Positions 21,984 through 29,798 of a stretch of DNA of 30,617 nt are shown here, in pieces (positions within the stretch are counted from its first letter, which is position 1; the number at the start of each line of letters is the position of its first letter). A model generated the notes under the pieces. The model had not been told where the DNA came from and did no database searches. It was given only the letters and a program-made list of their open reading frames with translations. A program made the translations under genes and the position numbers. The DNA lies in the IMG/VR virus record IMGVR_UViG_3300042331_000080, positions 1 through 30,617 of that record; one strand, written 5' to 3'. The DNA comes from a virus.

Positions 21984-22012
21984 TTGACTACCGGACGCCG
22001 ATACGGTATAAT
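21984..22012 (+). promoter_or_regulatory. Strong sigma70-type promoter of the early region
   Basis: TTGACT (21984-21989), a 17-base spacer and a perfect TATAAT (22007-22012). AT-rich sequence lies upstream (21947-21975). Transcription should start near 22019, about 35 bases before the first early gene. This is the best promoter seen in the window and separates late genes from the regulatory/replication genes. Confidence 0.85.
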
Positions 22013-22053: not shown

Positions 22054-22269
22054 ATGACTAAGGCAGCAAAAATAATCGCAGCTCTTCAAGTTGAACTAGT
22101 AGCAGCAATCGCAACAAAAGACGCAGCTAATGAAGCAATGGATGCAGATCGATTCTATGCAGCTTGCGAACGAGTTCGAGACATCGAAGCAGAAATCGAA
22201 CTAGCAGGTCGAGGCAAGTCAAGCGTGTGCAGCGTTACAAAGGAATTAGTAAGCAGCAACGCTGACTGA
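22054..22269 (+). CDS. First early protein, small and helical, 71 aa
   Basis: First gene after the strong promoter, with AAGGAAA before ATG 22054. The product is predicted almost all helix (AAKIIAALQVELVAAIATKD; FYAACERVRDIEAEIELAGR) with a short polar end, like small coiled-coil early phage proteins. Its stop codon lies inside the 5' strand of the hammerhead ribozyme, so its transcript would end about 50 bases after the stop once the ribozyme cuts. Function unknown. Confidence 0.65.
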   Translation: MTKAAKIIAALQVELVAAIATKDAANEAMDADRFYAACERVRDIEAEIELAGRGKSSVCSVTKELVSSNAD

Positions 22270-22333
22270 CTAAACTCACTGACGAGCTGGCGAGACTCCA
22301 GCGAAACGGCTTAGGCCGTCTGAGTAAATTCAG
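22266..22333 (+). ncRNA. Hammerhead self-cleaving ribozyme (type I)
   Basis: All conserved core bases are present in order. C3-A9 is CTGACGA (22279-22285; position 7 is variable). Stem II GCTGG/CCAGC (22286-22290, 22298-22302) has a 7-base loop. GAA at 22303-22305 is followed by A15.1. Stem III ACGGC/GCCGT (22306-22310, 22315-22319) has loop TTAG. The cleavage triplet is GTC, cut after C 22320. Stem I is ACTCA/TGAGT (22274-22278, 22321-22325), extended across an internal loop by CTGA/TCAG (22266-22269, 22330-22333), giving room for the loop contact that speeds natural hammerheads. It lies between two early genes. The downstream RNA would keep a 56-base leader. Confidence 0.88.
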
Positions 22334-22361
22334 CCGCAAGGCCCGCCTCGACGGTTTCGAG
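22333..22361 (+). other. Two small hairpins in the leader after the ribozyme
   Basis: GCC-GCAA-GGC (22333-22342) forms a GNRA tetraloop hairpin, and CTCGA/TCGAG (22347-22351, 22357-22361) forms a second with a 5-base loop. They would lie at the 5' end of the cleaved downstream mRNA, just ahead of GGAG (22366-22369), and could protect it or shape translation. Confidence 0.45.
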
Positions 22362-22376
22362 CTTTGGAGATGAAAA

Positions 22377-22682
22377 ATGATGGCAACAATGACCGCTCAA
22401 GAATTCGTAAACTCAATTGAATTTCCTTGTTTCTTTTTTGCTGGCAACGGCGCACCAGCGGGACAAACATACGCAATCTTGGAAAACACAGAATTACCTG
22501 TGAACCTTGAAGACGTAAAAGGTGAGATCGAAGCAGACGGAGGTTTTATCTGCACGAATCACGACGACGGCAAAGGCGGCTGGAATCACAGCGACCAAAG
22601 AGGAAACACAATCACCAAGATTCAAATCTACAGCGATAAGAAGCTTTGGGAACGTGAATACGCAGAATGGATGGGCGAATAA
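22377..22682 (+). CDS. Hypothetical early protein, 101 aa
   Basis: ATG 22377 has GGAG at 22366-22369. The protein is acidic, with several aromatic residues and a Gly/Asp/His-rich middle (CTNHDDGKGGWNHSDQRGNT), and ends in a helical WEREYAEWMGE. No family was recognised. Its mRNA would begin at the ribozyme cut site. The TAATG overlap with the HTH gene links the two in translation. Confidence 0.6.
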   Translation: MMATMTAQEFVNSIEFPCFFFAGNGAPAGQTYAILENTELPVNLEDVKGEIEADGGFICTNHDDGKGGWNHSDQRGNTITKIQIYSDKKLWEREYAEWMGE

Positions 22683-22897
22683 TGCCAGACGCAAACGATT
22701 GGATACGAGACTCGGTAGCCAACGCTGCCGAGTCACAAGGCCTAACGGCTTACGCAATCGCCAAGCTACTCAACGGATCGCCAACCGAAGAAACGGTAAA
22801 ACGGTATATTGCCAAACGTTGCCATCTTGGCACGCAGCATGTGTCGAAAATCTGCGATGTGCTGGGTTTGGATTTGAAAGCGAGGAAGAGGAAGTAG
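22682..22897 (+). CDS. Small HTH (Cro/XRE-like) regulator, 71 aa
   Basis: The chosen start at ATG 22682 overlaps the upstream TAA. The helical layout SVANAAESQGLTAYAIAKLL - TEETVKRYIAKRCHLG - THVSKICDVLGLDLKARKRK-type ending matches single-domain XRE/Cro-like repressors whose last helix reads ADVLGL or similar. There is no oligomerisation domain. A promoter/operator palindrome starts 13 bases beyond its stop, making it the natural candidate to bind these sites. It likely takes part in the lysis-lysogeny or early gene switch; that is inference from position. Confidence 0.7.
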   Translation: MPDANDWIRDSVANAAESQGLTAYAIAKLLNGSPTEETVKRYIAKRCHLGTQHVSKICDVLGLDLKARKRK

Positions 22898-22935: not shown

Positions 22936-23148
22936 ATGATTGCAAAAATAGACAAAAACTGGATTACGGTAAAAGAGGCTGCGGAAATAATCGGATGCTC
23001 CAACGGTCACGTTCGGCATTTGATTGACGGCCAAAAATTGGTCGCCAAAAAGTTTGGAAACTGCTGGGCTATCGAATTCAAAGCAGCGGAGAAAGTCGCA
23101 AGAACTCCAGCGAAAACAGGCCGTCCAAGAAAAGTGCAAAAAAACTAG
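22936..23148 (+). CDS. Excisionase/HTH_17-like DNA-binding protein, 70 aa
   Basis: Begins MIAKIDKNWITVKEAAEIIG and continues with a helix-turn-helix (CSNGHVRHLIDGQKLVAKKF) and GNCWAIEF, the shape of small MerR/excisionase-type DNA-binding domains. The tail is basic (TGRPRKVQKN), an AT-hook-like GRP motif. ATG 22936 is the only sensible start. GGAG ends just one base before it, too close to serve as a ribosome binding site, and the promoter predicts a leaderless mRNA, as for lambda cI from PRM. The role may be excision or repression. Confidence 0.7.
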   Translation: MIAKIDKNWITVKEAAEIIGCSNGHVRHLIDGQKLVAKKFGNCWAIEFKAAEKVARTPAKTGRPRKVQKN

Positions 23149-23226: not shown

Positions 23227-25251
23227 TTGAGTGCATGGCGAGTATCGCTAACGGATGCACGGAAACGGAATCTATTCGTGAAAGATCCTAAACGGATTTT
23301 GACAGACGCCGAAAAGCTGCAGGTGTTGATTTCTTATTCGTATCGATGCCAAGGCGATGGGTGCGAGTTCCCTGTATTGACCGAGAGCAGTAAGTACGAA
23401 TTTCATCATGTGAAGCCGCACAGTGAAGGCGGATCAACGGTTCCGATGAATCACGTTCCTTTGTGCGTATCGTGCCACAAAAAAGCACACATGAAAGATG
23501 TGGCATTGCAGTTCGGAACGCCTTGGACTGAGTTGAGGGAGTGGCAACGCGAAGCTTTAGAAAGATACATTGCAGACTATGACGATTTACACACGTGGGT
23601 TTTGGAAGCCGCTCCTGGTGCTGGCAAGAGCTTGTTTGCTGCATCAACAGCAAACTACGTTCTGAATAATTCTTCCATCGATCACGTTGTTTGCATCGCT
23701 CCTTGGGTTCCGATTATCAGATCGTTAAAAGCAAACTTTGGCTGCTACGACTTGAGTGTTAGTGAGAAGTTTCATTATGACAAGTCAAGAGGTGTGTTGC
23801 AGCAAACTCCGGCTGCGGATGTGACGATTGAAACCTACCAAGGCTTTTGCGGTCAGTTGACTGTAGACCTAATTAAGAAGTGGAAGGATTCTAAGGATTG
23901 GTCTTTTTTCTTAATTCTAGATGAGGTGCATCACACTAACACGGAGTCTGGTAAGTGGGGGACTTTCCTGGACCCGATAGCGAAGCTCGCGGATAAAGTT
24001 TTAGTGATGTCTGGAACCTACTTCAGAAGCGACAGTAAACCAATTGCGTTTTTGGAGTACGTTGGCGACAGGCCAAAGAGAAACTACGAAATAGACTACA
24101 AGGAGTGTGTAGCAAAGCGGTATACAAGACAGGTTTCTTTTCGCTACCACAATCCGTCTTTGGAAGTGCATAGCCACAAGAACCAAAAGTCCAGGCGATA
24201 TAAACTGTCCAGCATTCCGAAGGCGTCTCCGAAGATGATGGCTGTAGTCAGGAACGAAGTTTTAGACCCAAAGGGAGTCCATGTCGAGTCAATGATACTG
24301 GACGCATGGAGAGAGCTGCAGACGATGCGTAAAAAATGGCATGACGCAGCGTGTCTTGTTGTGTGCCGTGGTGGTGCAAGTGAAGGGGACGAAGAGCGTA
24401 ACGTTCACTTGGTCGCGCAAAAGATATCGAAGCTTACCTCTGCTGATGTGGTTACTGTCACGAGTGATGATAGAGCTAGTCGTGGAGCGATCGACGCTTT
24501 TGTAGGCGGCTCTGAAGCTTTCCTGTGTGCGATCAGGATGGTTTCGGAAGGTGTTGATATACCCAGAGTGAGAATGGTGTTGTTCCTGTCATACACCGAA
24601 TCGGAAATGCTTTTTCGGCAAATCGTAGGAAGGTCAGTTCGGTGGATAAAACACAAGGAAGACGACACGGCAGCATTGGTGATAATGCCAAAATTTTCAG
24701 TTATGGCTGAATTTGCAGAACGCTTTGAGGATGAAGCAAAGCAGGGTATTAGAGAGATGCCTGTCAGAATACCAGAGCCAAGCGACAGAGGTTTTGGCGG
24801 AACGTGTCAAAAGTGCTTTTCTGATCCATGCAAATGCTTTGTGGTGATTGATTCTGAAGTTTCAGCTGATGGCGGACAGATTGCCACGAATTATGTAAAC
24901 GAAGAGTTTATTCAGTTAGCTATGTGCGTAAGGGACATGAGCCGCGCACATCAGCACGCCAATCCAGTTCAGCTCGGGGAAGCTTTGCGATGTGCTGCAG
25001 AGGCTAAAGGGGCACTTCCTACAGTGTCGCTGGCGGATAAACGCGATCAAGCATGGCAAGGTGTTGCACGGCAAATGAACGCCATTGCTAGGCATGCCTA
25101 TGGGGGAGATTACGCAGCCGCTTGGTTTAAGGAGGTTCACCAAAAGCATCACACGGACGCTGCTGAAATAAAAGCAACGTGGCGAGTCGATCAAATTCAC
25201 GAGTTGCGAGACAGACTTAGACTTAGACTTGAAGAGGTGTTAAATGCTTAA
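23227..25251 (+). CDS. HNH endonuclease-SF2 helicase fusion, 674 aa
   Basis: Residues 36-90 form an HNH module: Cys pairs C41/C46 and C80/C83-H84 around a FHHVKPHSEGGS segment (H60, H61). An SF2 helicase follows: motif I APGAGKS (129-135), motif II DEVH (232-235), motif III SGT (262-264), motif V AIRMVSEGVDIP (435-446) and motif VI QIVGRSVR (465-472). A CQKCFSDPCKC cluster (527-537) may bind zinc, and a helical tail follows. The enzyme could unwind and cut DNA, in replication, packaging or defence against other DNA. TTG 23227 is the most upstream start; GTG 23278 is an alternative that keeps the HNH. The gene lies just after the operator palindrome. Confidence 0.85.
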   Translation: MSAWRVSLTDARKRNLFVKDPKRILTDAEKLQVLISYSYRCQGDGCEFPVLTESSKYEFHHVKPHSEGGSTVPMNHVPLCVSCHKKAHMKDVALQFGTPWTELREWQREALERYIADYDDLHTWVLEAAPGAGKSLFAASTANYVLNNSSIDHVVCIAPWVPIIRSLKANFGCYDLSVSEKFHYDKSRGVLQQTPAADVTIETYQGFCGQLTVDLIKKWKDSKDWSFFLILDEVHHTNTESGKWGTFLDPIAKLADKVLVMSGTYFRSDSKPIAFLEYVGDRPKRNYEIDYKECVAKRYTRQVSFRYHNPSLEVHSHKNQKSRRYKLSSIPKASPKMMAVVRNEVLDPKGVHVESMILDAWRELQTMRKKWHDAACLVVCRGGASEGDEERNVHLVAQKISKLTSADVVTVTSDDRASRGAIDAFVGGSEAFLCAIRMVSEGVDIPRVRMVLFLSYTESEMLFRQIVGRSVRWIKHKEDDTAALVIMPKFSVMAEFAERFEDEAKQGIREMPVRIPEPSDRGFGGTCQKCFSDPCKCFVVIDSEVSADGGQIATNYVNEEFIQLAMCVRDMSRAHQHANPVQLGEALRCAAEAKGALPTVSLADKRDQAWQGVARQMNAIARHAYGGDYAAAWFKEVHQKHHTDAAEIKATWRVDQIHELRDRLRLRLEEVLNA

Positions 25252-25840
25252 TTTAGACAATACACGAAACAGGATTTTCCATCGCGTTCATCGGACAGGT
25301 GAGGAGATTAAGAATGATCTACCGAATCTCATTGAGAGAGTAGTTGATAGCGGGGCGTGGAATGAAGTAATCAACCCGTCAACCATGAAGCCATTTCAAA
25401 GCGTCGGTGAGTGGTTGGTTGCGAACTACCCTCTTGGCCCAGGTGTTGGTCAGGGTCAATACGCGATCAAGTACGAAGAGTTGATACTTCTCTGCGAAAC
25501 ACGAACCGAGCTTTGCAAGCTGTTGAAGGACAATCGGCCAGCGAGGAAACGTGGTGGCGATCGTAAGTCTGAGGAAATCAAAATTAGGGAACCTAAGTTT
25601 GAAAAGATACCGACACCAGGAACACGTCTCTACATCGAGGAACGCCTTAAACGCGACCATCCGAAAGTCTGGCGGGAGTACTTGGATGGTGTTTATGGAT
25701 CAGCGAGACAGGCTGGTATTGCTGCTGGTTTTATTAAAGACACGCACGATGCATTGATGCGGCTCAAATCCAACTGGAATAAGGCTACTAGGTCACAGCG
25801 TAAAGCTTTCATGAAGTGGATTCAGGAGGAATCGCAGTGA
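25244..25840 (+). CDS. Putative DNA-binding early protein, 198 aa
   Basis: Overlaps the helicase gene by eight bases. The N-terminal half is helical (DLPNLIERVVDSGAWNEVIN) and includes FQSVGEWLVANYPLGPGVGQ. A basic linker (RPARKRGGDRKSEEIKI) follows. The C-terminal part has GSARQAGIAAGFIKDTHDAL, typical of a helix-turn-helix in which a Gly-Phe turn ends the second helix, then RLKSNWNKATRSQRKAFMKW. The layout suggests binding to DNA as a replication or partition accessory. The family was not identified. Confidence 0.55.
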   Translation: MLNLDNTRNRIFHRVHRTGEEIKNDLPNLIERVVDSGAWNEVINPSTMKPFQSVGEWLVANYPLGPGVGQGQYAIKYEELILLCETRTELCKLLKDNRPARKRGGDRKSEEIKIREPKFEKIPTPGTRLYIEERLKRDHPKVWREYLDGVYGSARQAGIAAGFIKDTHDALMRLKSNWNKATRSQRKAFMKWIQEESQ

Positions 25841-26151
25841 CAACCACAGACTCGGATATTGGACCCCTCTTCGCCTACGCACGCTCCTGCGATCCCGCAA
25901 CGAGCCGCGAATCAGCGATTGATACAAAGCTAGTCGCTACAGGCTTGCGATTAGTCTTCGTGCATCAAGTCAGAGAGCACGGACCATGCACGGCGAATGA
26001 AGCTGTCGAGTCTTTCGAAAACAATCATTACGCACAGTCGGTACGCAAGCGTGCTAGCGAGTGCGAGGCTTTAGGTTTAGTGCGAGTCATCGGGACTCGT
26101 GCATGCAAAGTAACAGGCAGGACGGCACAGATTTACGAGGTAATTGAATGA
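25837..26151 (+). CDS. Winged-helix protein, 104 aa
   Basis: GTG 25837 overlaps the previous TGA (GTGA) and has AGGAGG at 25824-25829. The product starts VTTTDSDIGPLFAYARSCDP with ATSRESA, the opening of many phage winged-helix proteins. It then shows helices of a winged HTH (TGLRLVFVHQVREHGPCTAN; YAQSVRKRASECEALGLVRV) and a wing ending GRTAQIYEVIE. Likely a small DNA-binding factor. The end overlaps the next small gene by four bases. Confidence 0.65.
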   Translation: MTTTDSDIGPLFAYARSCDPATSRESAIDTKLVATGLRLVFVHQVREHGPCTANEAVESFENNHYAQSVRKRASECEALGLVRVIGTRACKVTGRTAQIYEVIE

Positions 26152-26306
26152 GCACAACAACGGAACAAAACACCACCACAAATCAAAACATGGAGGCAAT
26201 TCGTCTTGCGGTCGAGGTCGTCTGCCTGATGCGACGATCCGGCTACATAGTGAAGGATGACACAGTGCTGGAAGTGATAAAGCTTTGCGGCAAGGTGGCG
26301 AAGTAG
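26148..26306 (+). CDS. Small early protein, 52 aa
   Basis: The ATGA overlap with the winged-helix gene supports translation. It begins with a Thr/Asn/Gln-rich arm (STTTEQNTTTNQN), then a helical section (MEAIRLAVEVVCLMRRSGYI) and VLEVIKLCGKVAK. No family was recognised. It ends directly at the G-rich repeat stretch. Confidence 0.5.
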   Translation: MSTTTEQNTTTNQNMEAIRLAVEVVCLMRRSGYIVKDDTVLEVIKLCGKVAK

Positions 26307-26385
26307 TTGCGGCAAGGTTTGGCTTGGCGCGGCGTGGCATGGCAGGCCGCAAGCGGGTTTCTTAAAAGTTTTACGAGGCGAAGTA
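26307..26385 (+). repeat. GGC-rich pentanucleotide repeat within an inverted repeat
   Basis: TTGGC, TTGGC, GCGGC, GTGGC and ATGGC follow one another (26319-26343), a five-fold NNGGC run. TTGCGGC (26307-26313) pairs with GCCGCAA (26346-26352). No open frame with convincing coding character crosses it. It may be an RNA hairpin or a slipped-strand product. Confidence 0.4.
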
Positions 26386-26469
26386 ATGCTGATGTGGTCG
26401 CTTGGTTTTTTGTTTGGCATCTTCTGGGGCGTAATGGTTTCAAGACTGTTGAGACGTTATGGAATTTGA
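26386..26469 (+). CDS. Tiny membrane protein, 27 aa
   Basis: ATG 26386 has GAGG at 26375-26378. The sequence is one hydrophobic span (MLMWSLGFLFGIFWGVMV) followed by a basic end (SRLLRRYGI), as expected of a single-pass inner membrane peptide with positive residues inside. The stop overlaps the start of the tRNA-like element. Phages carry such small membrane peptides for several ends; this one cannot be assigned. Confidence 0.5.
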   Translation: MLMWSLGFLFGIFWGVMVSRLLRRYGI

Positions 26470-26559
26470 ATCGGCTTGAAGGTAAGGCTTAGCGGGAACA
26501 AGGTGTTATGCCCCCCTTAAAATAGCTAAGTTAAGTTGGTTCGATCCCAACCCGATTCA
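26468..26559 (+). ncRNA. tRNA-like element with oversized anticodon region
   Basis: GAATCGG (26468-26474) pairs with CCGATTC (26552-26558), a 7-bp acceptor stem followed by an A. A perfect T-arm sits directly before the 3' strand: GTTGG-TTCGATC-CCAAC (26535-26551). A D-arm-like GCTTGAAGGTAAGGC (26474-26488) carries the GG and A of a D-loop but shares one base with the acceptor stem. The anticodon position is replaced by CTTAGC/GCTAAG (26488-26493, 26525-26530) around 31 bases with no normal 7-base anticodon loop. No CCA is encoded. It could be a degenerate or intron-bearing tRNA, a tmRNA-like domain or a processing signal. Confidence 0.5.
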
Positions 26560-26600
26560 TTGGTTAATGTTTTATGGAATCTTTAGGCATGGAGTGTTTT

Positions 26601-26786
26601 ATGTTGGTACTTAGCAGGAAGAAAACGGAATCAGTTCGCATTGGAAGCGACATCGTTATCACGATTATTGAAATACGCGGGGACAAGGTACGTCTTGGGT
26701 TTAACGCACCAAAGGACGTTTCGATTCATCGTCAAGAAGTGTACGACATCATCATGCAACAAAGCGAGGAGAAAATCGCATCATGA
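26601..26786 (+). CDS. csrA: CsrA/RsmA family RNA-binding regulator, 61 aa
   Basis: Clear full-length CsrA: MLVLSRKKTESVRIGSDIVI start, VRLGFNAPKDVSIHRQEVYD core with the conserved R6 and R44 used to contact GGA motifs in RNA. ATG 26601 has GGAG at 26591-26594; that site reads ATGGAG, itself a CsrA-type target, so autoregulation is possible. CsrA dimers bind mRNA leaders and block or change translation. On a phage it could redirect host or phage mRNAs, including the several structured leaders in this genome. The end overlaps the acetyltransferase start by four bases (ATGA). Confidence 0.93.
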   Translation: MLVLSRKKTESVRIGSDIVITIIEIRGDKVRLGFNAPKDVSIHRQEVYDIIMQQSEEKIAS

Positions 26787-27265
26787 CTGCAATTCAAATG
26801 GCTACTCAGACTTACATCCGATGGATGGTGCGAAGCGACTTATCCTCAGTAGTCGCAATCGAAAAAGACGTATTTGATTATCCGTGGAGTCAGCAAGAAT
26901 TCCTAATTGCACTGCGTCAACGAAACTGTATCGGCATGGTCGCAGAACGAAACGAAGAAGTCGTTGGGTACATGGTCTACGAACTTCATAAAACAAGAAT
27001 TGAGTTACTGAACTTTGCAGTACGGCCACGATCACAACGGCTTGGTGTTGGTTCTGCAATGATCGAAAAGTTGAAGTCGAAACTAGCTTACGAACGACGT
27101 AGCAAGATATCGCTGGAGCTGCGTGAAAGGAACCTAGAGGGACAGTTGTTTTTTCGCCAGGCTGGTTTTTTATGTACGTCAATTTTGCATGGGTGGTATG
27201 CGGTCGAGGAAGAGTCCGTTGCGTATCGAATGCAGTTCAATACAGGAGAACTTCGAAATGGCTAA
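26783..27265 (+). CDS. GNAT N-acetyltransferase, RimI-like, 160 aa
   Basis: Shows the GNAT fold in order: an N-terminal RWMVRSDLSSVVAIEKDVFD with PWSQQEF as in RimI-type enzymes, a central strand MVAERNEEVVGYMVYEL, then the acetyl-CoA loop RPRSQRLGVGSAMIEKLKSK (Q/RxxGxG/A) and the late LRERNLEGQLFFRQAGF. RimI acetylates the N-terminus of a ribosomal protein; related phage enzymes may modify other proteins. Coupled to csrA by a four-base overlap, so both are probably made together. The substrate is unknown. Confidence 0.85.
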   Translation: MTAIQMATQTYIRWMVRSDLSSVVAIEKDVFDYPWSQQEFLIALRQRNCIGMVAERNEEVVGYMVYELHKTRIELLNFAVRPRSQRLGVGSAMIEKLKSKLAYERRSKISLELRERNLEGQLFFRQAGFLCTSILHGWYAVEEESVAYRMQFNTGELRNG

Positions 27266-27557
27266 CCTATACGTTCAGGTAAAGATCACTTGGTTTTTCC
27301 AAACTTCGCCAGCGTCTTTTTCGTTTTACGCAGATCCAAACAGTGACGCTTTCACCAGCGGTAGGTTTGACGATTCGCGAACGCATTATGCGGTTGTGGA
27401 GATCGTCGGCAATGAAGCGTTGACGTTGGCACAACTGAAGGCTGATCTGTCGGAAAAGTTTCGACATCAACCAGCGGTGTGGGAGGTGAAGCCGATTCGC
27501 AAGTATGAATACATTGCTGGGATTGAACGATTGAAGGAGGAGTGCGTTCATGAGTAG
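27258..27557 (+). CDS. Hypothetical protein, 99 aa
   Basis: The chosen start at ATG 27258 has AGGAGA upstream and overlaps the acetyltransferase by eight bases. The sequence has strands (NLYVQVKITWFFQTSPASFS; YAVVEIVGNEALTLAQLKAD) and a helical end, with FRHQPAVWEVKPIRKYEYIA in between. No family was recognised. It overlaps the zinc-ribbon gene by eight bases, so it belongs to the same coupled group. Confidence 0.55.
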   Translation: MANLYVQVKITWFFQTSPASFSFYADPNSDAFTSGRFDDSRTHYAVVEIVGNEALTLAQLKADLSEKFRHQPAVWEVKPIRKYEYIAGIERLKEECVHE

Positions 27558-27828
27558 AAAGAAGCAGCAAGAAAAGATATCTCCGATGCGGGAGTGCAGA
27601 TTGTTAAAACAGCAAGGCTACAGCGATGACGAACTATTCAAAATGGGATTCGACAGAAACATGATTCAGAAGTCAGTCGTTTCTGTTGGGGGTAATCGTG
27701 GTGGGTGTCAGTCCTATAACAGATGTGACGTTTGCGGACGCAACGTCTACTACTTGAAAAAGCACGATACGTGTCGCGCTTGTAAACTAAAGAAACAGCT
27801 AAAAGAAGAGATCGGAGTAACGTTTTGA
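27550..27828 (+). CDS. Zinc-ribbon protein, 92 aa
   Basis: A basic N-terminal helix region (KISPMRECRLLKQQGYSDDE) is followed by a Gly-rich turn and two CxxC knuckles, CDVCGRNVYYLKKHDTCRAC, in a treble-clef-like spacing. It ends basic (KLKKQLKEEIG). Likely a small zinc-binding nucleic-acid or protein adaptor. The next gene's ATG (27828) overlaps its TGA by one base. Confidence 0.6.
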   Translation: MSRKKQQEKISPMRECRLLKQQGYSDDELFKMGFDRNMIQKSVVSVGGNRGGCQSYNRCDVCGRNVYYLKKHDTCRACKLKKQLKEEIGVTF

Positions 27829-28082
27829 TGAACAGACAAGCACGATTAGAGGGATCTAAAGAATGGACGGACTACGGCAACGTCACTTTTTTCGAAGCAA
27901 TTAAAACGCACGCTATTTTGACATCGCAACGCAATAGCTTATGCCCAGCAAAATGGGTTGTTGACGTACGTTGCGAATCCGAACCAGAAACAATCGATAC
28001 GTTTGAAGTTCAAACGACTATTACGTTTGAACTTCAAACGACTATTCACGCTGAAATTTTGAATCCACGAAAGGGTATGTAA
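27828..28082 (+). CDS. Hypothetical protein with tandem peptide repeat, 84 aa
   Basis: ATG 27828 has GGAG at 27814-27817. The body is mixed (EWTDYGNVTFFEAIKTHAIL; CPAKWVVDVRCESEPETID). Near the end an eight-residue unit is duplicated (TFEVQTTI-TFELQTTI), encoded by the tandem palindromes at 27999-28046. No family was recognised. It ends in a TAATG overlap with the next gene. Confidence 0.5.
   Translation: MNRQARLEGSKEWTDYGNVTFFEAIKTHAILTSQRNSLCPAKWVVDVRCESEPETIDTFEVQTTITFELQTTIHAEILNPRKGM
27999..28046 (+). repeat. Tandem 24-bp repeat, each copy a perfect palindrome
   Basis: Two 24-base copies differ at one base. Each contains CGTTTGAA-N-TTCAAACG (28000-28016 and 28024-28040), with N being G in the first and C in the second, so the cores are exact reverse complements. 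Centres are 24 bases apart, a little over two helical turns. They lie in the 3' end of a coding region, about 40 bases before the next start. Confidence 0.8.
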
Positions 28083-28468
28083 TGAGTTTAATTGTCCCAG
28101 AGAATTTGGATTTATCCAAGCTGGAAGTTGCCAGCGTTGATTTAAGTCAACAGTATTGGACACCGGAAAAGGTAGGTGAGAAACGACGTATGTTTTTCTC
28201 CTGCGTTCAGGAAAGAATCGTACTGGATCAGAAGACGGGGGAAGATATCTTGCTTCCTTGTGCGGTGTTTGTTGAGCCTGTTGATGGAGAGATTCGAACG
28301 GTAGTGAACGGTTCGAAGCGGTTGGTGGCTGTGTTCGAGAACAATGAGATAGCAGTCAATACTCCGGTGCAAATCACCTACAAGGGGAAGAAGAAGAATC
28401 GGACGAATGGGAATATGAGCGATGACTGGTCTATCGTAATGCTCAAAATGCCAGGGGGTGAAAAGTGA
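28082..28468 (+). CDS. OB-fold-like protein, putative ssDNA-binding, 128 aa
   Basis: ATG 28082 overlaps the previous stop and has AAGGG at 28071-28075. It has a short N-terminal arm, then beta strands (KRRMFFSCVQERIVLDQKTG; LPCAVFVEPVDGEIRTVVNG; RLVAVFENNEIAVNTPVQIT) ending in a basic loop YKGKKKNRTNG and a closing strand with DDWSIVMLKMP. This suggests an OB-type fold. In many phages a single-strand binding protein stands next to a YqaJ nuclease, as here, supporting a recombination role. The family is not certain. Confidence 0.5.
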   Translation: MSLIVPENLDLSKLEVASVDLSQQYWTPEKVGEKRRMFFSCVQERIVLDQKTGEDILLPCAVFVEPVDGEIRTVVNGSKRLVAVFENNEIAVNTPVQITYKGKKKNRTNGNMSDDWSIVMLKMPGGEK

Positions 28469-28491
28469 TTGATTTAGATTCACTAGTGTAG
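28465..28491 (+). pseudogene. Relic of the start of the YqaJ nuclease gene
   Basis: GTG 28465 overlaps the stop of the OB-fold gene and encodes MIDLDSLV before a TAG. The true nuclease starts MIDLDSLI at 28751. The 24 bases around 28464-28487 and 28750-28773 match except for three transitions. The likely history is insertion of the 84-residue gene between the two genes, leaving this duplicated start behind. Confidence 0.6.
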
Positions 28492-28503
28492 TAAGGATGC
28501 AAA

Positions 28504-28758
28504 ATGACTAAGGATTACAAAATACGATTATTTGGAGCTAAAGCACAGTTTACGCAAGATGGCAATACTTTAGGATCAACTGACGACACGGAGATACTGG
28601 ACATATCTTTTGAGAATCAGCTTCCAGGTGATGAGACGTTTATGGTTTTGCGATCAACAACTGGATGGTCTATCAACGATGCTTCCGACTTAACAAACAT
28701 TTTAGAACGGGTTCATAAAGCGATTGAAGCTATAAGGGAGTTTGATGGCAATGATTGA
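28504..28758 (+). CDS. Hypothetical protein inserted in the recombination module, 84 aa
   Basis: AAGGA precedes ATG 28504. The protein starts YKIRLFGAKAQFTQDGNTLG, includes TEILDISFENQLPGDETFMV, and ends in a helix (NILERVHKAIEAIREFDG). It is acidic with mixed strands. Direct copies of the nuclease start flank it, so it seems to be a late arrival. No family was recognised. Its stop overlaps the nuclease start region. Confidence 0.55.
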   Translation: MTKDYKIRLFGAKAQFTQDGNTLGSTDDTEILDISFENQLPGDETFMVLRSTTGWSINDASDLTNILERVHKAIEAIREFDGND

Positions 28759-29404
28759 TTTAGACTCACTAATTGAGGACGTTGCGATCGTCGATCGTGA
28801 CGAAGCAGCACGAGAAGAATGGTTACAGAAACGTGCTGGACGGATTACCTGCAGTCGCTTCGGTGACTTGATCGGAGAAGGGAAAGCAAAAGACGCTTTG
28901 TTTACTCAGACTGGATACGCTTACCTTCAGTTGCTTGTCGCAGAACGGTTAGGCTCGTGGTACTCATTTTCGAACAGCGCGACTCAGTGGGGAACGAATA
29001 ACGAACCGATTGCAATTGACGAGTACCGAAAACTTACTGGTAACGAAGTCAATTCAACACCGTTCAATTTCTTCGAGTACAACGATTTTATCGGTGGTAC
29101 TCCAGATGGATTGGTAGGTACTGATGGCACCGTTGAAGTCAAGTGTCCATTTAATCCTTCGGTGCATGTCGGAACTTTGCTGACGAAGACAGTACCGAAG
29201 GAGTACGAGTGGCAAGTCTACGGTCACATGCTGGTGACGGATCGCAAGTGGTGTGACTTTATCAGCTTCGATCCACGGATTGAAGGAAAGCAAAAAATAG
29301 CAATCGTTAGGATAGAACGAGATGATGCGAAGATTGCGTTTTTGAAGTCGAGACTGGAGTTAGCTGTGAAGGTTATGGGTGAGATGATGGATAGGTTGAT
29401 TTAA
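28751..29404 (+). CDS. YqaJ/lambda-exonuclease-family recombination nuclease, 217 aa
   Basis: Has the conserved sequence WLQKRAGRITCSRFGDLI, then WGTNNEPIAIDEYRKL and the catalytic PD-(D/E)xK block GGTPDGLV...TVEVKCP, with the pattern YEWQVYGHMLVTDRKWCDFI downstream. Such enzymes degrade one strand from double-strand ends to feed a strand-annealing or ssDNA-binding partner; the OB-fold protein upstream could play that part. ATG 28751 is chosen because the relic copy at 28465 starts at the same codon; ATG 28745 is also possible, with AAGGGAG at 28734-28740. Confidence 0.85.
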   Translation: MIDLDSLIEDVAIVDRDEAAREEWLQKRAGRITCSRFGDLIGEGKAKDALFTQTGYAYLQLLVAERLGSWYSFSNSATQWGTNNEPIAIDEYRKLTGNEVNSTPFNFFEYNDFIGGTPDGLVGTDGTVEVKCPFNPSVHVGTLLTKTVPKEYEWQVYGHMLVTDRKWCDFISFDPRIEGKQKIAIVRIERDDAKIAFLKSRLELAVKVMGEMMDRLI

Positions 29405-29419
29405 GTGCGAGGAGAAGAC

Positions 29420-29500
29420 ATGGAACAAATCGAAAACGGTGGATCGAGAACTTCGGTCCAATCAATTGTTAGGAGGCGATATGTCAGAGCGATTGTTTAA
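29420..29500 (+). CDS. Possible tiny protein, 26 aa
   Basis: ATG 29420 has an excellent AGGAGA at 29410-29415 with proper spacing. The frame ends at TAA 29500, so its last 20 bases overlap the next gene (start 29481). The product is basic and short (MEQIENGGSRTSVQSIVRRR and six more). It may be a leader peptide that sets up translation of the next gene, or a real peptide. Confidence 0.4.
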   Translation: MEQIENGGSRTSVQSIVRRRYVRAIV

Positions 29501-29798
29501 GGCAAGCGAATACCGAGAAGCGGAGTCCGAGCATAAACGAAACAATCCGACAAAGGGCGACTACTGGTGGGAGGATCATTTTTGCCCTGTACTGGTCGTA
29601 TTGGCAGTAGCAAAGGATTTTGTCACGGTATGTCGCAAAACAAAAGACGTGGGCGGCAACAAGTGGACGTGGGAGTTAACGCAGCCAGAGATTATGAGTC
29701 GAGCGGATTTTGTGAAAAAACTGGAGCATGGGCGTGTCGGTGGCGATCACTCATGGGCCGCAAGAGAGTTTGAGCGTGGATGTGTTTCGTCCACCTAA
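29481..29798 (+). CDS. Hypothetical protein, 105 aa
   Basis: ATG 29481 has AGGAGG at 29471-29476. The sequence starts MSERLFKASEYREAESEHKR and has a Trp-rich section (KGDYWWEDHFCPVLVVLAVA) followed by strands (FVTVCRKTKDVGGNKWTWEL) and a helical end with DHSWAAREFERG. The residue pattern suggests a compact globular early protein. No family was recognised. A strong hairpin starts eight bases after its stop. Confidence 0.55.
   Translation: MSERLFKASEYREAESEHKRNNPTKGDYWWEDHFCPVLVVLAVAKDFVTVCRKTKDVGGNKWTWELTQPEIMSRADFVKKLEHGRVGGDHSWAAREFERGCVSST

Follow-up and report, generated by a model that had tools for sequence, protein, structure and literature searches.

This locus raises the question of what a self-cleaving RNA would do between two genes of a phage operon. 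The role of hammerhead ribozymes in prokaryotes was still listed as an open question in a 2017 review (PMC6155905). The DNA analysed here, called the window, is a stretch of 30,617 nucleotides from a virus (IMG/VR record IMGVR_UViG_3300042331_000080). An earlier note, made from the letters of the window, described a complete hammerhead ribozyme at 22266-22333 and proposed that it works as a direct RNA switch between the first gene and a regulator operon.

Structure and support of the hammerhead motif

A type I hammerhead ribozyme was identified at 22266-22333 on the plus strand by an independent covariance model, folding, and a strict pattern finder. Its minimal part, assigned by sequence and fold, spans 22274-22325. 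The core C3-A9 is CTGACGA at 22279-22285, followed by stem II (22286-22302), i.e., 5 bp of GCTGG/CCAGC at 22286-22290/22298-22302 with a 7-nt loop, and by G12-A14, i.e., GAA at 22303-22305. Stem III is composed of ACGGC/GCCGT at 22306-22310/22315-22319, and its 5 bp, closed by a TTAG loop, include the A15.1-U16.1 pair. The GTC (GUC) cleavage triplet ends at C17 (22320). The inner part of stem I has 5 bp, ACTCA/TGAGT at 22274-22278/22321-22325, and is separated by an internal loop, CTAA/AAAT, from an outer extension of 4 bp, CTGA/TCAG at 22266-22269/22330-22333. The motif agrees with the hammerhead core rule (C3 U4 G5 A6 N7 G8 A9, G12 A13 A14, A15.1-U16.1, and H17) and with the type I topology, in which stems II and III are closed and stem I is open. 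Stem I has its internal loop, loop II is of a conserved G-Y-G-A-R-A type, and the minimum free energy (MFE) fold of 22262-22335 is exactly the hammerhead.

The core bases, three stems, cleavage triplet, and coordinates described in the earlier note were all exact by sequence and MFE fold. The natural-looking type I fold that it saw, with stem I continued across an internal loop, is present in the window, but relatives do not keep the outer CTGA/TCAG extension as such. From hammerhead chemistry and the GUC triplet, cleavage on the plus strand is predicted at 22320/22321, leaving a 2',3'-cyclic phosphate on C22320 and a 5'-OH on U22321. No second hammerhead of type I, II, or III was found in the window, i.e., the ribozyme is a single copy. 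Another covariance-model match, at 2666, was rejected as noise (11.6 bits).

The covariance model was built from 15 phage hammerheads, none of which belongs to the lineage of the window. With this model the site scored 72.5 bits (E 4.1e-23), and the rest of the window gave noise. The strict finder required the core and the correct register, with a minimum of 4 bp in stems I and III and of 3 bp in stem II. It produced 2 matches in 300 shuffles of the window; the real loci gave 165 matches, among those listed, and shuffled loci totalling 4 Mb gave 0. In the covariance alignment, 99.6% of the cells were paired compared with 74.8% after shuffling, and compensatory, two-sided changes were found in 11 of 15 pairs, with all three helices affected. 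Stems I and III had, however, been required by the finder when the aligned sequences were selected. A cleaner test therefore used scan patterns that fixed the core and stem II only and left stems I and III free. Both free stems were in register in 17/21 and 101/140 unique matches of two scans (among the matches listed), against 62/3020 in the control with shuffled flanks.

The earlier note had proposed the Rfam hammerhead models as a check, and formally this check failed. Neither at the gathering score nor at a relaxed E-value was an acceptable match obtained in the window, and the best scores at the site, 20.3 bits (RAGATH-1) and 17.2 bits (Hammerhead_3), were below the gathering threshold. 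However, Rfam release 15 at the gathering score also recovered no hammerhead in seven other loci, i.e., L013, L025, L143, L061, L019, L098, and L047. The failure thus reflects the models rather than a defining feature of the ribozyme, and their silence on the window says little. Standard annotation with Rfam overlooks this group of phage type I hammerheads.

Operon organization and the shared leader

A sigma-70-like promoter, TTGACT-17-TATAAT, was predicted before gene 1 at 21984-22012, with 11 of the 12 consensus bases and with a predicted counterpart at the same place in relatives. All features of the operon are on the plus strand. Gene 1 (22054-22269) is an ORF of 71 aa, for which the Pfam and PHROG searches gave no match and the search for relatives found none. 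Its stop codon, TGA at 22267-22269, is part of the outer 5' strand of stem I, and the predicted cut is 56 nt before the downstream ATG at 22377, both as first described. The leader of the downstream mRNA would thus cover 22321-22376; it was aligned with the promoter-made leaders of relatives. It contains a leader core, CCGCCTCGACGGTTTCGAGCT, at 22343-22363, which in an occurrence search was found only behind a hammerhead or a promoter, and a Shine-Dalgarno (SD) sequence, GGAG, at 22366-22369.

Gene 2 (22377-22682) encodes 101 aa of no known family by the family searches and is also found directly behind a hammerhead in relatives. Gene 3 follows directly, with no hammerhead between; it encodes approximately 71 aa from an ATG overlapping the gene 2 stop (22682-22897), is listed as a 76-aa ORF from 22667, and had no family match. 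Gene 4 (22936-23148) was assigned to HTH_17/excisionase-like DNA-binding proteins by family searches. The term regulator operon, used in the earlier note, thus fits gene 4 but finds no counterpart in the family searches for genes 2 and 3. No intrinsic terminator or second promoter was found between gene 1 and gene 3, and the region had no match at the DNA level in cultured phages.

Other ORFs of the window were also assigned. In the ORF at 23227-25251, an HNH nuclease domain and a ResIII/DEAD-type helicase are fused, and the ORF at 290-1060, made of repeated SGTLTxTLDxATLSSSGT units, probably encodes a structural or tail-associated protein. The phage also encodes, at 26574-26786, an RNA-binding regulator of the CsrA family (Pfam PF02599, E 5.7e-24). 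GGA is the kind of site that CsrA binds, and the SD of the conserved leader carries GGA; a link between this leader and the phage CsrA is speculative.

Near relatives have one or two hammerheads. Four contigs with 95%-identical gene 2 homologues have two, 411 bp apart around one ORF, which is a protein-coding gene with an SD. Copies that are otherwise nearly identical have ACGGC/GCCGT or ACACC/GGTGT in stem III, i.e., the changes are compensatory, and the core is intact in every copy of the lineage. The slot of gene 1 is occupied by other genes in L178, L179, L006, and L180. The window has the hammerhead and leader type of copy 2, but the gene behind them is the one that follows copy 1 in relatives. 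As the upstream genes vary and the window mixes a copy 2 hammerhead with a copy 1 gene, the operon is a mosaic, and this mosaic gene content extends from the promoter to gene 3. The close relatives L175/L184, L176, L177, and L187 have neither the hammerhead nor the leader, so the element is dispensable.

A common leader, approximately 45-50 nt up to the SD, follows the cut in all copies of the lineage and stays constant in front of different genes. Its 21-nt core, CCGCCTMGACGGTTTCGAGCY, was found at 15 places in nine viral contigs and the window. Eleven of these places are directly after a hammerhead, four are directly after a predicted promoter, TTGNCT-17-TATAGT, and none is elsewhere. When near-duplicates were removed, approximately five distinct ribozyme-borne and three promoter-borne leaders remained, and the lineage evidence stands on these few. 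Judged by sequence comparison, a 136-aa gene is the clearest natural experiment on the leader. It is the first gene in L180 and L181, with the order promoter, leader, gene and no hammerhead, and the third gene in L178, L183, and L185, where it is placed behind hammerhead 2 and the same leader. Promoter-borne and hammerhead-borne forms of the leader even occur in one operon, in L006. Because the same leader is found behind a promoter or a hammerhead, the cut stands where a transcription start would. This comparison suggests that the cut would give the downstream gene the same mRNA start as it would have directly behind the promoter. A leader hairpin, CTCGA/TCGAG, was also considered; it is a plausible pairing but was rejected, as one pair was broken and no covariation was found in the secondary structure of the leader.

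Hammerheads in other phages

Two pattern-limited scans gave at least 148 unique hammerheads, nearly all in viral contigs. Counted with mechanical ORFs, on pattern-biased samples and on contigs that are fragments, an upstream stop codon was placed 0-9 nt before C3 in 75 of 129 hammerheads, and the UGA of the core was itself the upstream stop in 24 more of the 129 (among the matches listed). Control positions shifted by 150-300 nt gave 3-9. A start codon was found 15-60 nt past the cut in 102 of 148, and 80 of these had an SD-like match (among the matches listed). The layout is mostly stop codon, ribozyme, short leader, and ATG.

Some phages have hammerheads in arrays. In L025 (IMGVR_UViG_3300015371_000033), a contig of 62 kb, approximately a dozen type I hammerheads were found at successive gene borders on one strand (24818-29535), and arrays of 5-7 were found in other phages. 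The sequence following the hammerhead is nearly uniform within each array phage, i.e., CTACCAGAAAGGA in most copies of L025 and CTGCAATGGAG in L143. The arrays of L047 (2409-3858) and L107 (5350-6440) carry a uniform TATTATTATG-like leader with no SD, which points to hosts for which SD sequences are not essential. The use of a hammerhead as an intercistronic cutter, which the earlier note thought worth studying, is not unusual; it recurs widely in phages, and it was proposed in 2011 (PMC3088659).

Among cultured phages, Pseudomonas aeruginosa phages phita81A, 5371, and 5399 match the hammerhead core (L173, approximately 2494-2548; L174, same place). In phita81A the match reads as a hammerhead in which stem III has 3 bp and the triplet is GTT; it is placed upstream of a tRNA-Thr gene and could be a laboratory model. 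The pattern of core and stem II was also found in L147 (5625), L146, and L148, contigs binned as Thaumarchaeota, cyanobacterium, and Thermoplasmata, and L147 has stems I and III as well.

Proposed function of the predicted cleavage and relation to known systems

The best explanation, with a probability of about 0.76, is a constitutive type I hammerhead that cleaves itself during transcription, splits the operon RNA at the border of gene 1 and gene 2, and gives the internal gene a promoter-like leader. It is carried by the motif and its conservation, the covariation, the layout of stop codon, ribozyme, leader, and ATG, and the equivalence in sequence of promoter-borne and ribozyme-borne leaders. 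From these we infer cleavage, its rate, its effects on RNA stability, and an insulating function. RNA polymerase would start at the promoter at 21984-22012 and read through gene 1; the ribozyme would fold once the 3' strand of stem I emerges and would cut after C22320. The upstream product would be a gene 1 mRNA ending in the folded stems II and III with a 2',3'-cyclic phosphate. The downstream product would be a mRNA of gene 2 to gene 4 with a 5'-OH and the standard short leader bearing the SD. It is plausible that the 5'-OH, the cyclic phosphate, and the terminal stems affect RNA stability. By such a cut the internal gene would receive the promoter leader of a first gene, whatever is transcribed upstream, which would allow the stacking or exchange of cassettes within the operon.

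Folding was computed with an energy model that omits tertiary contacts and irreversible cutting. With 5-13 nt of transcript beyond the cut, the hammerhead of the window is the dominant fold, at 0.85-0.97 per stem in prefix folding. In the full uncleaved RNA of the window, the stems reach only 0.34-0.61, being lost to long-range alternatives, and the values are lower in some relatives; stems I and II of L006 are near zero at every length computed. Within the model, the prefix folding agrees with cutting during transcription.

A rival explanation is a regulated switch, in which the hammerhead and a fold pairing its stem II/III strands with the leader and SD exclude each other. Whether gene 2 is translated would then be set by a signal, or by the departure of ribosomes from the stop codon, that allows the ribozyme to fold and cut. 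The uncleaved RNA of the window does have an alternative MFE fold, CUCCAG with the SD region, of -32.4 kcal/mol compared with -31.3 kcal/mol for the hammerhead fold, and the predicted accessibility of the SD rises modestly on cleavage in 5 of 6 sequences. However, the window itself is nearly flat (0.55 to 0.61), and the pairing is not kept in L013a, L021a, and L006, in which stem III carries compensatory changes, so that the SD-sequestering fold was rejected as a conserved element. No ligand-binding domain is apparent. The stop codons are so near stem I that a terminating ribosome would cover it, and some coupling to translation is possible, but genome compactness also explains the close spacing. 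A regulated switch is thus unlikely, and this part of the earlier note is not supported, whereas covariation, context, and the comparison with relatives support a hammerhead acting as an intercistronic cutter.

The mosaic gene content between the promoter and gene 3 could also mean that the hammerhead and leader are mainly a repeated boundary for cassette exchange, with RNA cleavage being secondary. The window, with a stem III and leader of the hammerhead 2 type before the gene that follows hammerhead 1 in relatives, would agree with this. Selection for DNA homology alone, however, is not expected to give compensatory changes in stem III and an invariant core, and the fold is the only thing common to unrelated phages. 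A role mainly in recombination is accordingly rather improbable.

The paired copies, 411 nt apart around one ORF in the four related contigs, and the phage in which a dozen hammerheads mark one gene border after another would fit the excision of single-gene RNAs, i.e., units released with 5'-OH and cyclic phosphate ends and ligated to circles. The window, however, has a single copy, the leader logic needs no ligation, and circular or spliced products were sought but not detected by Perreault et al. (PMC3088659). This reading has very little probability left. A chance or decayed, inactive motif, to which the Rfam scores below gathering would point, is hardly credible against the E-value of 4.1e-23 with the independent model, the covariation, the conserved placement, and the intact core in all copies of the lineage.

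Constitutive processing at the gene border has a precedent. Perreault et al. (2011) reported hammerheads flanking single genes in prophages and proposed processing into single-gene mRNAs (PMC3088659). Three tandem sets from prophages cleave in vitro, and the Agrobacterium tumefaciens set cleaves in E. coli (PMC3088659). As the flanking hammerheads and the processing idea were published then, the ribozyme of the window, which likewise flanks a single gene in a phage operon, belongs to a known kind. The text consulted from that paper does not describe the spacing of stop codon, ribozyme, SD, and ATG, arrays with approximately a dozen members, or equivalent promoter and ribozyme leaders, all of which were found here. 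In the open-access literature searched, the equivalence, the tight layout, and the array size were not found, nor were papers after 2011 on phage hammerhead arrays; the leader evidence appears to be new.

The HHphage variant of haloviruses HF1/HF2 is also a phage hammerhead upstream of a start codon, by 13 nt, but it has a variant structure, for which a possible response to salt has been discussed, whereas the core of the window is canonical (PMC3088659). Retrozymes and the hammerheads of satellites and viroids share the ribozyme fold (PMC4918200, PMC6155905). In contrast to them, the window has no LTRs and no non-coding circular replicon, and the copies found here are placed at gene borders and share a translational leader. 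A retrozyme or circular RNA replicon, which would need tandem ribozymes around a non-coding unit with LTR-type ends, was rejected, as the window has a single copy and relatives have a protein gene with an SD between two copies.

The element resembles the synthetic insulator RiboJ (Lou et al. 2012), of which it may be a natural counterpart. As described in PMC6206723, RiboJ combines a self-cleaving hammerhead with a leader next to the ribosome binding site, so that the 5' end of the mRNA no longer depends on what lies upstream. It is composed of the sTRSV hammerhead and a 23-nt hairpin, and is placed between a promoter and a gene (PMC6206723). The ribozyme of the window, by comparison, is natural, of type I, and between genes, and promoter-proximal genes in relatives have no ribozyme.

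On balance, it is somewhat favoured that hammerheads serve phages generally as RNA-level substitutes for promoters. The leader of a cassette would need an RNA 5' end, which would come from the transcription start if the gene is first and from self-cleavage if it lies further inside the operon. Nearly every gene of an operon would, in some phages, have its own ribozyme, and one-gene mRNAs would be made from one transcript. Synthetic biology might also draw insulator parts from phage hammerheads as a natural source. Their role has been open since the first reports, and the leader comparison gives it a specific answer, i.e., the cut would make the 5' ends of internal mRNAs.
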